This document shows positions 13,733 through 29,849 of a stretch of 29,849 bases of DNA, one piece after another (position 1 is the stretch's first letter; every line of letters starts with the position of its first letter). A program made the position numbers and the translations under genes. The DNA lies in IMG/VR virus record IMGVR_UViG_3300042455_001598, positions 1 to 29,849 of that record; one strand, 5' to 3'. The stretch is from a virus. Below the pieces are notes generated by a model that had not been told where the DNA came from, did not search any database, and saw only the letters and a program-made list of their open reading frames with translations.

Positions 13733-14088
13733 ACCCGGAACAGAAGCTCACCGCCGCCTGTCTGGCATTCGTCGCAAGCGCCCGGCTGAAGTCCGCCAAC
13801 GGTCTGACCGTCAGCGAGTTCGGCTCCCTCGTCGTCGAGCTCCTCCGCCTGGCCGTCACCGGCCTCGAGGAGATCCCGGCCGATGGCCCGGCAAAGAAGG
13901 CCTGGGCCCTCGGCGTGATCGGCAACCTGTTCGACACCGTCGCCGGTTTCGCGGTCCCGCTCTACCTCCAGCCCTTCTGGATCTTGGCCCGGCCGGCGGT
14001 TCGGGCCCTGGTGCTGGCCGCTGCCGGCGGGGCTCTCGAGCAGATCCTGACGCTCACCCGCGCCGCCGCCCCGGAGCCCGTCGCATGA
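13729..14088 (+). CDS. Small protein with hydrophobic C-terminal half (possible membrane protein)
   Basis: The product has 119 residues from ATG 13729 (ATGA overlap). Residues about 1-60 are helical and soluble. Residues about 65-108 contain two moderately hydrophobic stretches (W-A-L-G-V-I-G-N-L-F-D-T-V-A-G-F-A-V-P-L and A-V-R-A-L-V-L-A-A-A-G-G-A-L), which could form a hairpin in the membrane. It opens the run of membrane proteins around the papain-like peptidase, so a holin or accessory role is conceivable, but no family is recognised. A longer frame upstream is the zinc-ribbon shadow. Confidence 0.6.
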   Translation: MNPEQKLTAACLAFVASARLKSANGLTVSEFGSLVVELLRLAVTGLEEIPADGPAKKAWALGVIGNLFDTVAGFAVPLYLQPFWILARPAVRALVLAAAGGALEQILTLTRAAAPEPVA

Positions 14089-26081: not shown

Positions 26082-26329
26082 CGATCTCCCTGGCCGATGC
26101 CATCCGGGCATCGGTCCCGAAGTCTGCCCGTCCTGTCGCCCGCTGGTGGCACTCGCTCCCGCCGGATGTCCTTGAGGAGCTCAACGCCGTCCGGGATGAC
26201 CTGCGGCAAGGCCGACTCCCCAGCAACAAGAGCGCCGTGGCCCGGGCGATCGTCGAACACCTCCACGCCCGGGGCCTGTCCGAGGTCCGACAACAGGGAG
26301 TCCTCGCGTGGCTGAACGAAAAAGCCTGA
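26057..26329 (+). CDS. Small helical, possibly DNA-binding protein
   Basis: The product has 90 residues from ATG 26057 with AAGGAG at about 26043-26048, overlapping the previous gene by 25 bases. Helical throughout: W-W-H-S-L-P-P-D-V-L-E-E-L-N-A-V-R-D-D-L, then a turn and N-K-S-A-V-A-R-A-I-V-E-H-L-H-A-R-G-L-S, which resembles the helix-turn-helix of small transcription regulators or small terminase-like proteins. It overlaps the metallophosphoesterase gene by 22 bases, so the two may act together. The role is unproven. Confidence 0.55.
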   Translation: MPPKAEAVTISLADAIRASVPKSARPVARWWHSLPPDVLEELNAVRDDLRQGRLPSNKSAVARAIVEHLHARGLSEVRQQGVLAWLNEKA

Positions 26330-27510
26330 GGCACTCCGTCACCGAGTCCGTTGCCGCCGCCGCCACGAAGCCCGCCCCGGACGCGGAGCAGGTGTCGGAG
26401 CGCCGCGAGGGGGCCGAGCTCGAGTACCGCTCGACCTCCAAGACGATCCGCACCGTCGAGGATCTCCTTGAGCACATCGAGGCCGACATGGCCCGTTTCG
26501 AGGTGGCCGCCTCGGAGGCCACGAAGTGGGAGGTGGCCACCGTCGACCGCGACACCGGGAAGCCCGTCGTCACCGTCCTCCACCGGGTGTTCGTCCGGCT
26601 TCGCCCACGCGGTGGGCCCGCGGTGGCCGAGCTCGTCGCCGCGATGATCGCCGGGGCCGCTGCGGCCGGCAGCATCGGACGCCCGAAGGCGAAGGCCACG
26701 AAGGCCAGGCCCGGCCCCTGGCAAGTCCTCGTGGTTGCCGACACCCACTTCGCCAAATACGCCTGGTCACGCACCACCGGGGGCGATGACTACGATCTCG
26801 ACCACGCCGATCGGCTGGTCCGATCAGCCGGGCTCGGGCTCCTCGAGGCCGGGGACGCTCACCGCCCTGCTCGTCGGACGATCGCCTTTCTCGGTGACCT
26901 GTTCCACTACGACACCCCATCCGCGACCACGACCAGGGGAACGCAGCTCGAGCGAGACGGCCGACTCGAGCGGATGATCGCGACCGGCTCCTCCGCCCTG
27001 GTTGCCCTGGTCGAGCGATCCGCCGAGACCGCCCCGACCGACTGCGTCATCGTCCCGGGGAACCACGACGAGACGATGACCGCGTGGTTTCGGTTGCTGT
27101 TGCGGACTCACTTCGCGAAGGATCGCCGGGTGGTCGTGCATGACGTCTACACCCACCGGCAGTACCTCGAGCATCAAGGCAACCTGTTGGGCTTTGCTCA
27201 CGGAGACAAGGCCCGGGCCAAGCTCCCGGCGCTGATGACATTGGAGGCCCGGGAGGCATGGGCCCGGTGCCGCTACCGCGAGATCCACACCGGGCACCTC
27301 CACAAGCAGGCCGCCAAGATCCGCCGGGTGATCGACTCCGATGGGATCGACACCGTCGACGGCGTGGTGGTGCGAACCGCCCCGGCCCTGTGTCCCCCCG
27401 ATGACTGGCATTCCCAGGAGGGCTTCATCGGCAGTCGGCAGGCGATGGAGACATGGTTCTATCGGGCCGGCGGCGGGCTCGCCGGGATGCTGGTGGCAGA
27501 CGGGGGTTGA
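26308..27510 (+). CDS. Calcineurin-like metallophosphoesterase with added N-terminal domain
   Basis: The product has 400 residues from GTG 26308. The core has all metal-site motifs of the family: D-T-H at 145-147, G-D-L-F-H at 196-200, G-N-H-D-E at 251-255, H298 in F-A-H-G-D and G-H-L-H at 329-332. The enzyme would use two metal ions to cut phosphodiesters or phosphomonoesters; family members act as nucleases, nucleotidases or protein phosphatases. Residues about 1-135 form a separate helical/beta part (T-I-R-T-V-E-D-L-L-E-H-I...V-L-H-R-V-F-V-R-L) that I do not recognise. It is probably involved in nucleic acid processing. Confidence 0.85.
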   Translation: MAERKSLRHSVTESVAAAATKPAPDAEQVSERREGAELEYRSTSKTIRTVEDLLEHIEADMARFEVAASEATKWEVATVDRDTGKPVVTVLHRVFVRLRPRGGPAVAELVAAMIAGAAAAGSIGRPKAKATKARPGPWQVLVVADTHFAKYAWSRTTGGDDYDLDHADRLVRSAGLGLLEAGDAHRPARRTIAFLGDLFHYDTPSATTTRGTQLERDGRLERMIATGSSALVALVERSAETAPTDCVIVPGNHDETMTAWFRLLLRTHFAKDRRVVVHDVYTHRQYLEHQGNLLGFAHGDKARAKLPALMTLEAREAWARCRYREIHTGHLHKQAAKIRRVIDSDGIDTVDGVVVRTAPALCPPDDWHSQEGFIGSRQAMETWFYRAGGGLAGMLVADGG

Positions 27511-27540: not shown

Positions 27541-28059
27541 ATGATCACCGAGGAAGAACTGGCAGAGATGGACCGCCGCATTCAGGGCACCGGCTCGGCC
27601 AACTGTTGGACCGGGACGAGCGGCAGCGTTGCCGCCATCGCGCGGCGGCTTGTGAACTTCATCAGGGAAGGGCGACCAGTGGAAGGGACCACATCCAAGT
27701 TCGGCACCGGGGCTGTTCGGAGCGACACGGCCGAGGCTTTCCGATTCGACCTGATCTCACCGATCGGCCTGCGGGAGGTCGCCAGGACTTGCGCCGAGGG
27801 GGCCGCCAAGTACGACGATTACAACTGGGAAAAGGGGATGCCGGTTCACGATCTCCTGAACCACGCGATCGCCCACATCTACCAATTCCTCTCGGGGGAT
27901 CGGAGCGAACCGCACCTCCCCCACGCCGCCTGGAATCTGCTCGCCGCCATTCACTCCGACGAGCTCTGGCCCGGCCTGAACGACGGAACGCTCCGCGGCC
28001 CGGGGTGTGTCGCCCCTACCCAGCCAGCCACCGCAGCAGCAGGGCCACCGGGATCGTGA
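27541..28059 (+). CDS. dATP/dGTP diphosphohydrolase-like protein
   Basis: The product has 172 residues from ATG 27541 (GAGGG upstream). From about residue 66 it matches the phage dATP/dGTP pyrophosphohydrolase N-terminal family: R-F-D-L-I-S-P, A-R-T-C-A-E-G-A-A-K-Y-D-D-Y-N-W-E-K-G, L-L-N-H-A-I-A-H-I-Y-Q-F-L and L-P-H-A-A-W-N-L-L-A-A-I-H. In phage S-2L and relatives such enzymes (MazZ) remove dATP or dGTP so that 2-aminoadenine can be used; many others occur without that chemistry. The last 22 residues are low-complexity, and the 3' end overlaps an antisense small ORF. Its partner enzymes PurZ and DpoZ are not in the window. Confidence 0.72.
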   Translation: MITEEELAEMDRRIQGTGSANCWTGTSGSVAAIARRLVNFIREGRPVEGTTSKFGTGAVRSDTAEAFRFDLISPIGLREVARTCAEGAAKYDDYNWEKGMPVHDLLNHAIAHIYQFLSGDRSEPHLPHAAWNLLAAIHSDELWPGLNDGTLRGPGCVAPTQPATAAAGPPGS

Positions 28060-28093
28060 TCGGCAGCCACGCGATTACCTGACGGGCCGTCAT
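28016..28093 (-). CDS. 25-residue hydrophobic micro-ORF coupled to the integrase
   Basis: On the minus strand the integrase stop TGA (28092-28090) overlaps an ATG at 28093 as ATGA. The ORF ends with TAG at 28018-28016. The product is M-T-A-R-Q, then a hydrophobic stretch of about 18 residues (V-I-A-W-L-P-I-T-I-P-V-A-L-L-L), then R-W-L-A-G, a likely single membrane span. The ORF lies antisense to the end of the diphosphohydrolase gene. Very short ORFs can be chance, but the exact stop/start coupling and hydrophobic core make it worth recording. Confidence 0.4.
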   Translation of the reverse strand: MTARQVIAWLPITIPVALLLRWLAG

Positions 28094-28998
28094 GGGGTCT
28101 CCTCCTCGATGAACGTGGCATCCTCCCCGAGATCGAGCCGGGGGAGGAAGTCTATCCCCGCCGCCTTCCCGACGATCCGATCGTCGAGGTAGTGGTCCCG
28201 CGTGATGTTCGCATCACTGTGGTCGAGGTGGCCCACGGCATCCCCGCCCGCCGCGGCAACGTAGGAGGCCGAGGCTTTCCGCAGGGCATGAAATCGCCGC
28301 TGCGGTACGCCGGCCTGATCGCACAGGATCCGCATCGAGTGATAGATCGACGTCGGCCGGTGGGGCCACGGCCAGACCAGATCGCCGGGGCATCGGCGGT
28401 GGAGCTCGAGCTCGGCCGCGAGGTCGGGGGTGATCTTTCGGGCTATGTCGCGCGTGTGGCCCTTCCTGGTGCCAGCCAGGAAGACGATCTCCTCCCCGCG
28501 GACATCCTTCCAGCGGAGGGCCATCAGTTCACCGATCCGGGCCCCCGTACACCAAGCCGAGTAGATCAACGTCGACCACCACCAGCCGGCCGGCAGGCCC
28601 GACAGGGTCCGCTGGCGCTTCCGGGCCGCCACGATCATCCGGCCCACCTCGGCGGCGGTGAAGCCGCGGGGGAGACGCTGAGCCTTCCTGATGGGCTTCA
28701 CGATGGGGAACTCGTTGATGAGCCGTTTACGGAATGCGTAGAGGGCGAGGCAGAGCAACTGTGTCCGGTCCTTCGCGATCGTCCCAGGGGAGGGCAGGCC
28801 ACGTTTCTCGCTGTGGACCGTCTTTGCCCTCCATGACAGGAATGCGGCGATCATGTCCTCCTCGAGGTCGTCGACCTCGGGCTCCCGTTTCAGGAAGTCC
28901 CGGAACCTGTCCAAGGTCGAGCCGTAGATCGCGACGGTTCGGTCGGAGAGCCCCTTCACCGGAGCGTATCGCTCGATCAGCAGTTGACGAAGCAGCAT
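28090..28998 (-). CDS. int: Tyrosine-recombinase integrase
   Basis: The product has 302 residues on the minus strand, with GAGGGG five bases before the ATG at 28998. It inserts and excises the phage genome at attP/attB. Residues about 1-95 form the core-binding domain (L-L-I-E-R-Y-A-P, L-D-R-F-R-D-F-L). Catalytic residues: Arg 154 in C-T-G-A-R-I-G-E-L, Lys 179 in T-R-K-G-H, His 237 and Arg 240 in F-H-A-L-R, His 260 in L-D-H-S-D and the nucleophile Tyr 270 in T-R-D-H-Y. All are intact. It lacks the N-terminal arm-binding domain of lambda Int, or has only a remnant, since the protein is about 300 residues. A micro-ORF follows it in the same direction. Confidence 0.95.
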   Translation of the reverse strand: MLLRQLLIERYAPVKGLSDRTVAIYGSTLDRFRDFLKREPEVDDLEEDMIAAFLSWRAKTVHSEKRGLPSPGTIAKDRTQLLCLALYAFRKRLINEFPIVKPIRKAQRLPRGFTAAEVGRMIVAARKRQRTLSGLPAGWWWSTLIYSAWCTGARIGELMALRWKDVRGEEIVFLAGTRKGHTRDIARKITPDLAAELELHRRCPGDLVWPWPHRPTSIYHSMRILCDQAGVPQRRFHALRKASASYVAAAGGDAVGHLDHSDANITRDHYLDDRIVGKAAGIDFLPRLDLGEDATFIEEETP

Positions 28999-29075
28999 GG
29001 CATCCCCTCAAGTGAATGGCATCCATGCCGTGTTTCCTCAGGGTAGCCCTAGTGAACATAGGTACAACCCCGCCA

Positions 29076-29103
29076 GTACGAGCGGAGCCCTCTCCGTTCG
29101 TAC
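29076..29103. repeat. 24+4 bp inverted repeat in the integrase-excisionase gap (attP/regulatory candidate)
   Basis: GTACGAGCGGAG (29076-29087) and CTCCGTTCGTAC (29092-29103) are complements at 11 of 12 positions with a 4 base centre. It lies in the 197 bp gap between int and the excisionase-like gene, together with GGCAT-CC-ATGCC (29018-29029), ACCCT-ATTC-AGGGT (29117-29130) and AGCGTG-TTGCC-CACGCT (29155-29171). Such clustering suits recombinase core and arm sites or divergent-promoter operators. Confidence 0.5.
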
Positions 29104-29195
29104 AAGTGCCCGACCAACCCTATTCAGGGTCGGCGGGCGAAGCCAATCGGTCGAAGCGTGTTGCCCACGCTCCGACCGTTGGCAATGCTTGGGGT

Positions 29196-29426
29196 ATGAA
29201 ACGCATGGGACTCCCAGGGCCGGAAGGCATCGACTGGCTTTGCACCGCTGACGCGGCCAAGTTGCTCGACATGAGCACCTCGGGCGTTCGCAAACTGGTT
29301 CAACGCGGCCAGATCTACGCAGCCAAGTTTGGCCGCGAGCTCGCCTTCTCCGCGAGAGATGTGAAGCGGATTGCCAAGCAACCGCACGCCGTTGGCGGGG
29401 TTCGCCAGGGCTTCAAGAAGAACTGA
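29196..29426 (+). CDS. Excisionase-like helix-turn-helix protein
   Basis: From ATG 29196 the product has 76 residues; the open frame back to 29016 lacks a plausible ribosome site and crosses the palindrome-rich gap. The core D-W-L-C-T-A-D-A-A-K-L-L-D-M-S-T-S-G-V-R-K-L-V-Q-R-G-Q-I-Y-A-A-K-F is the MerR-type winged-helix fold of phage excisionases (A-A-x-L-L...V-R-x-L-x-x-x-G-x-I). A basic tail follows. It is divergent from int across the putative attP region, the usual arrangement. It might instead be the repressor of the next promoter. Confidence 0.78.
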   Translation: MKRMGLPGPEGIDWLCTADAAKLLDMSTSGVRKLVQRGQIYAAKFGRELAFSARDVKRIAKQPHAVGGVRQGFKKN

Positions 29427-29429
29427 ACA

Positions 29430-29450
29430 GGCCGTTTCTCGGCCGTTTTC
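29430..29450 (+). terminator. Intrinsic terminator after the excisionase-like gene
   Basis: GGCCG (29430-29434), loop TTTCT, CGGCC (29440-29444), then GTTTTC and a C/T-rich run. It starts four bases after the excisionase stop. The stem is short but ends in TTTT. Confidence 0.6.
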
Positions 29451-29457
29451 CCCCTTT

Positions 29458-29473
29458 GTCCCGAATCCGGGAC
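29458..29473. promoter_or_regulatory. Operator-like palindrome O1 (GTCCC-N6-GGGAC)
   Basis: GTCCCGAATCCGGGAC is a palindrome, with GTCCCG and CGGGAC arms around four bases. It ends 7 bp before the -35 of the promoter at 29481. An identical GTCCC-N6-GGGAC element lies at 29522-29537. Confidence 0.55.
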
Positions 29474-29480
29474 GATGCTC

Positions 29481-29510
29481 TTGACAGTCTGCCCGAGCGT
29501 TTCATATCTT
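29481..29510 (+). promoter_or_regulatory. Sigma70-type promoter
   Basis: TTGACA (29481-29486) is a consensus -35, followed by an 18 bp spacer and TATCTT (29505-29510), a four-of-six -10. Transcription would start near 29517 and run to the right into the gene at 29701. Palindromes lie on both sides, so repressor control is likely. Confidence 0.6.
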
Positions 29511-29521
29511 CCGCCCAGTTC

Positions 29522-29537
29522 GTCCCTCACCTGGGAC
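29522..29537. promoter_or_regulatory. Operator-like palindrome O2 (GTCCC-N6-GGGAC)
   Basis: GTCCCTCACCTGGGAC has the same GTCCC and GGGAC half-sites and 6 bp spacing as O1 and covers the predicted early transcribed bases (about +5 to +20). The two sites are 64 bp apart start to start. Confidence 0.55.
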
Positions 29538-29629
29538 TGACGCAAGGCCATTGCGATGGCTTCGGATCAAGTGTCCACCTCGATTCCCCCGCGTTTTTCA
29601 GGGTGGACAGTTGGGCTGTCTGGGGTGGG

Positions 29630-29657
29630 TTGATCCCGCCCCCGGCTGGTCTATCTT
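29630..29657 (+). promoter_or_regulatory. Second putative promoter before the last gene
   Basis: TTGATC (29630-29635), a 16 bp spacer and TATCTT (29652-29657), which matches the -10 of the promoter at 29481 including the following CC. A GACAG-TTGGG-CTGTC palindrome (29606-29620) lies just upstream. Weaker than the first promoter. The 29427-29700 gap holds no gene, only these elements. Confidence 0.4.
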
Positions 29658-29700
29658 CCCTGAACTAGCTGAACGGAAGAACACCAACGGGGGCGAGGGG

Positions 29701-29849
29701 ATGTCGGACACGGGGACGAGGGCAACGGCAAGGAAGAGGGCGAAGCAGGCGGCAGCGGGGAAGAAGCCAGGGCGATTCGGGGGCGCGGCTCTGCCGTTCG
29801 ACCGGAGCCTGGCTCACCTCTGCTGGCAGATCGGGCTGAGCAACGAGCG
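29701..29849 (+). CDS. Start of a rightward, probably early, gene (cut at the right edge)
   Basis: ATG 29701 follows GCGAGGGG directly and the frame stays open to the window end, giving 49 full residues. The start is basic and disordered-looking (T-A-R-K-R-A-K-Q-A-A-A-G-K-K-P-G-R-F-G-G), then L-P-F-D-R-S-L-A-H-L-C-W-Q-I-G-L-S. Too little is present to assign a family. Its place behind regulated promoters suggests the first early gene. Confidence 0.5.
   Translation, partial: MSDTGTRATARKRAKQAAAGKKPGRFGGAALPFDRSLAHLCWQIGLSNE

Follow-up and report, generated by a model that had tools for sequence, protein, structure and literature searches.

The immunity regions of lambdoid phages consist of the CI repressor and its operators. 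The locus that we describe here is like them in two respects: a putative repressor gene and its cognate operators at an early promoter are apparently exchanged as one cassette, and the repressor mRNA is probably leaderless. It is unlike them in that there is neither a lambda-type HTH nor an S24 autocleavage domain, the protein being a single winged HTH of 76 aa, and in that two sites 64 bp apart bracket one promoter.

The sites of excisionases at att are direct repeats spaced by one turn (PMC7498355). Apl of phage 186 and Cox of P2 are, as the protein of this locus would be, small excisionase-type phage DNA-binding proteins that act at early promoters (PMC7498355). Nevertheless, their targets are direct repeats, located at att and between promoters, and neither of them is the immunity repressor of its phage (PMC7498355), whereas O1 and O2, the proposed operators of our locus, are inverted repeats, and our search of 20 records brought up no other repressor. 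CvkR represses type V-K CAST elements; it is of MerR type but no effector site can be recognized in it, its mRNA is leaderless and it binds a 15-nt inverted repeat in mobile-element promoters (PMC9938897). Our HTH protein resembles CvkR in being MerR-type, in its probably leaderless mRNA, in the inverted repeats that it would bind and in belonging to a mobile element; however, CvkR has around 17 kDa and a separate dimerisation domain (PMC9938897), while our protein is a bare 76-aa winged HTH with a short tail. Finally, BldC, RacA and GlnR (PDB 6ama, 5i44, 4r4e) are among the nearest solved folds to the model of the HTH protein. These are host regulators with an identity to it of only 14-25%, and BldC binds direct repeats cooperatively, unlike the inverted-repeat O1 and O2.

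The phage and its paired palindromes

The window, which means the whole stretch of DNA analysed, is the complete IMG/VR virus record IMGVR_UViG_3300042455_001598 (29,849 bases, G+C 60-71% per kb). By Pfam and PHROG searches it holds a DnaB-like helicase at its left end, a large terminase, a portal, a tape measure, a DNA-repair exonuclease, a dATP/dGTP diphosphohydrolase-like protein and a tyrosine integrase, and this gene set makes a temperate tailed phage very likely. The exonuclease gene (26308-27510) adjoins a gene for a 172-aa protein (27541-28059) with a dATP/dGTP diphosphohydrolase N-terminal domain (PF18909, E = 1.7e-17). The nearest catalogued genome match of the window is a Planctomycetaceae MAG, and an integrase relative at 79% identity (L127) sits in a Planctomycetaceae MAG, which suggests a planctomycete host group, although the L127 contig is short and therefore a binning error is possible. 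There were no tRNA genes in the window and seven loci. Regarding the GenBank phages, the only matches for the integrase were three faecal phage records without annotation (24-27% identity), and neither the HTH protein (searched against 50,697 phage records) nor the cassette DNA gave a match. The features of the right end of the window are the following:

28090 to 28998, minus strand: tyrosine integrase (PHROG phrog_1, E = 7e-31; Pfam PF00589, E = 1.1e-5)
29161 to 29189, plus strand: probable promoter of the HTH gene, TTGCCC-N17-AATGCT, 6 nt before the ATG (leaderless mRNA), backed by conservation
29196 to 29426, plus strand: HTH_17 protein of 76 aa (MerR/excisionase-like winged HTH; Pfam PF12728, E = 4.8e-7), the proposed repressor
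29455 to 29476, no strand: proposed operator O1, core GTCCCGAATCCGGGAC at 29458-29473, an exact palindrome in a 22-bp dyad
29481 to 29510, plus strand: predicted early promoter TTGACA-N18-TATCTT, a consensus match whose 18-bp spacer is kept in relatives
29519 to 29540, no strand: proposed operator O2, core GTCCCTCACCTGGGAC at 29522-29537, an exact palindrome
29701 to 29849, plus strand: gene that opens the rightward early operon, truncated after 149 bases where the record stops, no Pfam or PHROG match

The integrase and HTH genes are transcribed divergently. A dyad, GTACGAGCGGAG-ccct-CTCCGTTCGTAC, lies upstream of the integrase at 29076-29103; its GGAGCCCTCTCCG is invariant across all aligned close relatives, and it is a candidate integrase core site (attP).

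The original prediction was that two identical GTCCC-N6-GGGAC palindromes bracket a promoter, O1 ending 7 bp before a TTGACA and O2 covering about +5 to +20. Both palindromes are exact and lie at 29458-29473 and 29522-29537, as it had placed them, and the -35 (29481-29486) stands 7 bp past O1. The -10, TATCTT, is at 29505-29510 after the 18-bp spacer, and a start near 29517 puts O2 at about +6 to +21, with the centres of O1 and O2 at around -51 and +13 relative to the inferred start. A scan of the whole record for GTCCC-N6-GGGAC, which had been proposed as a check, found exact matches at 29458 and 29522 only. Palindrome-matrix scores are 28.6 and 24.8 for these two sites, whereas no other site in the record exceeds 11.6. 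In a promoter scan of 28990-29849, TTGACA-N18-TATCTT was the sole promoter-like site, where shuffles give 0.1. This promoter and that of the HTH gene are predicted from consensus matches backed by conservation.

A pair of N6 palindromes with the same half-site within 100 bp arises in 3.5% of shuffled windows, and such a pair (gap 0-12) with TTGACA between the sites in 0.5%, estimates which allow for the post-hoc choice of the half-site. In our reading of the sequences, the decisive argument for O1 and O2 being real is their conservation in relatives, over these chance estimates. As a signature across the collection, the GTCCC-N6-GGGAC pair returned 37 loci, among which 64-bp pairs with TTGAC in the interval occurred only in two relatives (L031 and L033) and in L025. 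The latter has TTGACC in the interval, and no HTH_17 cassette was recognised in its first 900 bases, the part inspected. Many of the remaining loci resemble arrays of repeats. Arrays of GTCCC-N6-GGGAC, with 59/76-bp spacing or as short tandem units, are also present in unrelated viral contigs (L017, L034, L037, L038; L022, L023; L003, L012, L030), where they are perhaps mobile-element ends or other regulators.

The gene at 29701 has a 150-aa homologue in L042. There the downstream operon encodes this protein, without a family match, an AAA_24 ATPase and a replication initiation protein, which fits an early lytic operon for replication/recombination. A second promoter-like sequence, TTGATC-N16-TATCTT, lies ahead of the 29701 gene at 29630-29657; it is 96-99% conserved across different operator cassettes and therefore probably outside the control of the HTH protein.

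Proposed operators and HTH gene in the relatives

An integrase scan gave 73 viral loci, 15 of them with 74-97% integrase identity. When the HTH alignment and the early gene served as queries in two further scans, no new contigs appeared, therefore the close family in the collection is probably exhausted. Wherever the contig permits, the gene order in the close relatives is integrase (minus strand), HTH gene (plus strand), intergenic promoter and early gene. All 8 distinct relatives, window included, have a promoter TTGAC[A/G/T]-N18-TA[T/C]nnT with a palindrome on each side; in all of them the O1-O2 distance is 63-65 bp centre to centre and the promoter spacer is exactly 18 bp, though the spacer sequence diverges. 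Thus the expectation that paired operators of a dimeric regulator flank an early promoter held in every close relative of sufficient length, with near-fixed geometry and with replication/recombination genes downstream. The half-sites, in contrast to the geometry, change, and we found these types:

i) GTCCC, in the window, L041 and L052.

ii) CTTCCCGC, in L040, L042 and L045.

iii) GTTCGAT, in L043 and L044.

iv) GTTaCGA, in L048, L049 and L053.

v) TTCGC, in L050 and L054.

Furthermore, O1 and O2 agree at 6.3 of 8 positions within the same phage and at 4.2 between different phages, a same-phage agreement reached in 14 of 40,320 permutations (p = 0.0003). The distances from O1 to the -35 and from the -10 to O2 vary oppositely (r = -0.80), so that their total is nearly constant (1,152/40,320 permutations, p = 0.029, without correction for shared ancestry), which is weak evidence that the O1-O2 distance itself matters. 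When six close-family records, window included, were each scanned with their own palindrome matrix, there were exactly two strong sites in each and nothing comparable elsewhere. No operator was seen at the HTH gene's own promoter in the window's clade. In L127, O1 is TTTGTGTCGCTGAACACAAA and O2 is imperfect.

Regarding covariation, phages with more similar HTH proteins also have more similar half-sites (Mantel r = 0.74, p = 0.001), but there is no such relation for the integrase (r = -0.11, p = 0.68); the correlation with the HTH is 0.74 when the integrase is controlled and 0.70 when the 18-bp spacer is controlled, the spacer itself correlating with the HTH at r = 0.59. Linkage alone would give some correlation, because the HTH gene and the operators are 30-110 bp apart, but it does not appear to explain the same symmetric change in four half-sites. 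The window and L044 share 97% identity upstream of the integrase and 98% from position 29601 to the right, but 44-69% in the HTH gene and operators that lie between. With L052 the pattern is reversed: the integrase gene is 75% and the HTH gene 77-88% identical and the GTCCC sites are the same, whereas beyond the cassette the sequence is unrelated (27-49%). From these patterns it follows that the cassette moves as a unit, the DNA flanking it being up to 97-99% identical where the cassette is 44-70% identical. By this comparison of sequences, the HTH gene and the operators are swapped together between related phages as a matched cassette. As in an immunity cassette, a gene for a DNA-binding protein adjoins operators at an early promoter, and their specificities covary and are exchanged together.

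For the repressor gene, the HTH gene at 29196 and the gene starting at 29701 had both been put forward. Only the former stands as the likely repressor, its alleles covarying with the half-sites and being exchanged with them. The 29701 gene, which lacks a family match, was rejected: its DNA stays 97-99% identical in L042 and L044 although the operators there differ, and therefore it is not the specificity factor.

The HTH protein scores 30.4 bits against the Pfam cut-off of 27 for its family and is 75-83 aa long in the close relatives. Its AlphaFold model is confident at residues 11-60, with pLDDT 82-89 in the winged-HTH core, while the tail is disordered and residues 65-76 are unreliable. Foldseek neighbours in the PDB were BldC, RacA, RdfS, Pukovnik Xis (4j2n) and GlnR, none below E = 0.001, therefore this is an assignment to a fold class only. 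In the recognition helix, Lys at residue 33 goes with the CCC half-site core (window, L052, L040), and the residue differs in alleles with other cores. L127, with half-site GTGnC, has Met33 and Ser36 and is otherwise identical through residue 57. Residue 33 is thus a candidate, from few cases, for setting half-site specificity. As for the gene's promoter, TTGCCCAC is invariant across all aligned close relatives and distant relatives have TTGAC-17-TAnnnT-6-ATG in the matching place, so that a leaderless mRNA is probable.

Most of the relatives at 40-50% integrase identity have an HTH gene of 74-96 aa in the same place. In this group a scan for palindrome pairs, limited to 45-85 bp, gave mostly noise, and the informative test was to compare the HTH promoter with the downstream promoter. 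In many of them one palindrome covers the -10 region of the HTH promoter and is repeated over the downstream promoter: TTTACCGAT types in L056, L085 and L090, TCTAACGCC types in L069, L070 and L073, AGTTGCG in L075 and L077, and ACTAACG in L096. None of 20,000 permutations reached the observed match between both promoters within a phage (14 non-redundant loci). The automatic search gave no convincing common site in L061, L063, L078, L082 and L100. L128, a phage fragment from the same MAG as L127, has an HTH gene of the distant type; the promoter of this gene carries GTAACGCCGGCGTTAC, and related GTTACC/GTAACG sites lie farther along, ahead of an early region of the window's family (both read by eye). 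Upstream of its integrase, an extra reading frame between the HTH gene and the early promoter is possibly a superinfection-exclusion or lysogenic conversion gene. Extra copies of cognate operators were seen in G015 (L140) at 13878-13926 and downstream of the HTH gene in L069 and L081; such copies suggest several repressed promoters.

A proposed immunity cassette and the alternatives

Given the observed sequence, conservation, geometry, cassette exchange and operator-HTH covariation, we think it likely, with some room for doubt, that O1 and O2 are the operators of an immunity (lysogeny) cassette, bound by the HTH protein of 29196 and shutting the early promoter. Binding, dimerisation, repression and immunity by this protein are predicted steps, and for immunity the basis is position and cassette exchange. 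The 76-aa winged-HTH protein would bind each palindrome as a dimer, and a dimer at O2 (about +6 to +21) together with one at O1, just upstream of the -35, would cap both edges of the RNA polymerase footprint, thus sterically shutting off the promoter that leads into the replication/recombination operon. O2 would be the blocking site and O1 a helper or loop partner. The two sites are about six helical turns apart, therefore their dimers may touch in a short loop; looping across the promoter is our guess, with which the 63-65 bp spacing is compatible. In a lysogen the prophage would be silent and phages with the same operator would be excluded, while phages with another cassette allele would be heteroimmune.

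No CI-like repressor was found elsewhere: in 20 records, some of them maybe incomplete, S24 gave no matches whatever and HTH_3 none that passed the cut-off, these being the two domains (HTH_3-type and S24 autocleavage) of a CI-type repressor. The lack of S24 also suggests that induction would not proceed by autocleavage. Some points speak against the immunity reading: the nearest families and folds, those of excisionases and BldC, bind direct repeats, the O2 of L127 is imperfect and no operator is seen at the HTH promoter of the clade.

The strongest alternative, which we consider rather unlikely, is that the HTH protein is an excisionase (recombination directionality factor) with a second function as regulator of the early promoter, lysogeny being kept otherwise. 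Its neighbours in sequence and fold (phrog_66, phrog_2655, Pukovnik Xis 4j2n and RdfS) are of this kind, its gene adjoins that of the integrase, and most close-family records have one HTH_17 gene only, so no separate excisionase is seen. However, O1 and O2 are inverted repeats, and not the direct repeats one turn apart at att of the excisionases (PMC7498355). The cognate sites are at the early promoter only, with none near the integrase or elsewhere, and the exchange of alleles with matched operators fits immunity better than excision. The HTH protein may also have a dual role as repressor and excisionase.

It is improbable that the HTH protein, instead of being a lysogenic repressor, activates the early promoter in the manner of MerR or controls it as a lytic regulator like Cro. 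Proteins of the MerR type often activate, and O1 at around -51 could in principle be an activator site, but O2 within the initially transcribed region is in a blocking position. Classic MerR-activated promoters have a spacer of 19-20 bp; here it has 18 bp, the -35 is close to the consensus, the operators lie outside the promoter and the protein has 76 aa without coiled coil or sensor. The distant relatives differ in this, their operator being placed in the spacer/-10 region and filling the -35/-10 spacer as in MerR promoters. A further point against this alternative is that the HTH_3/S24 search of the 20 records revealed no other repressor.

We give hardly any credence to the palindromes having nothing to do with the HTH gene, as host-regulator sites, RNA hairpins or chance repeats, since, although pairs of this form also occur in unrelated contigs and O2 could fold in the 5' leader, the half-sites change with the HTH allele in phages of near-identical backbone, and a hairpin or terminator was rejected because O1, with the same half-site as O2, is upstream and untranscribed from the early promoter and no T-run follows the palindrome.

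Meaning for the phage family

Among the papers searched, none dealt with how phages of planctomycetes control lysogeny. In this locus a likely repressor, its operators and their promoter could be identified from sequence alone, and they change as a unit between relatives. By eye, the relatives have roughly ten half-site types. We tentatively propose, as a possibility that we hold with less than even confidence, that they form a large natural set of orthogonal minimal repressor-operator pairs, in which a bare winged HTH of the excisionase type became an immunity repressor on inverted repeats and a few residues re-code its specificity. The same protein may serve as excisionase too, and if this is true it would be a one-protein lysogeny switch. 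The roles of the HTH_17/excisionase fold would thus be extended to an apparent immunity repressor, and the matched series of small repressors and operators would be natural material on the evolution of winged-HTH specificity.
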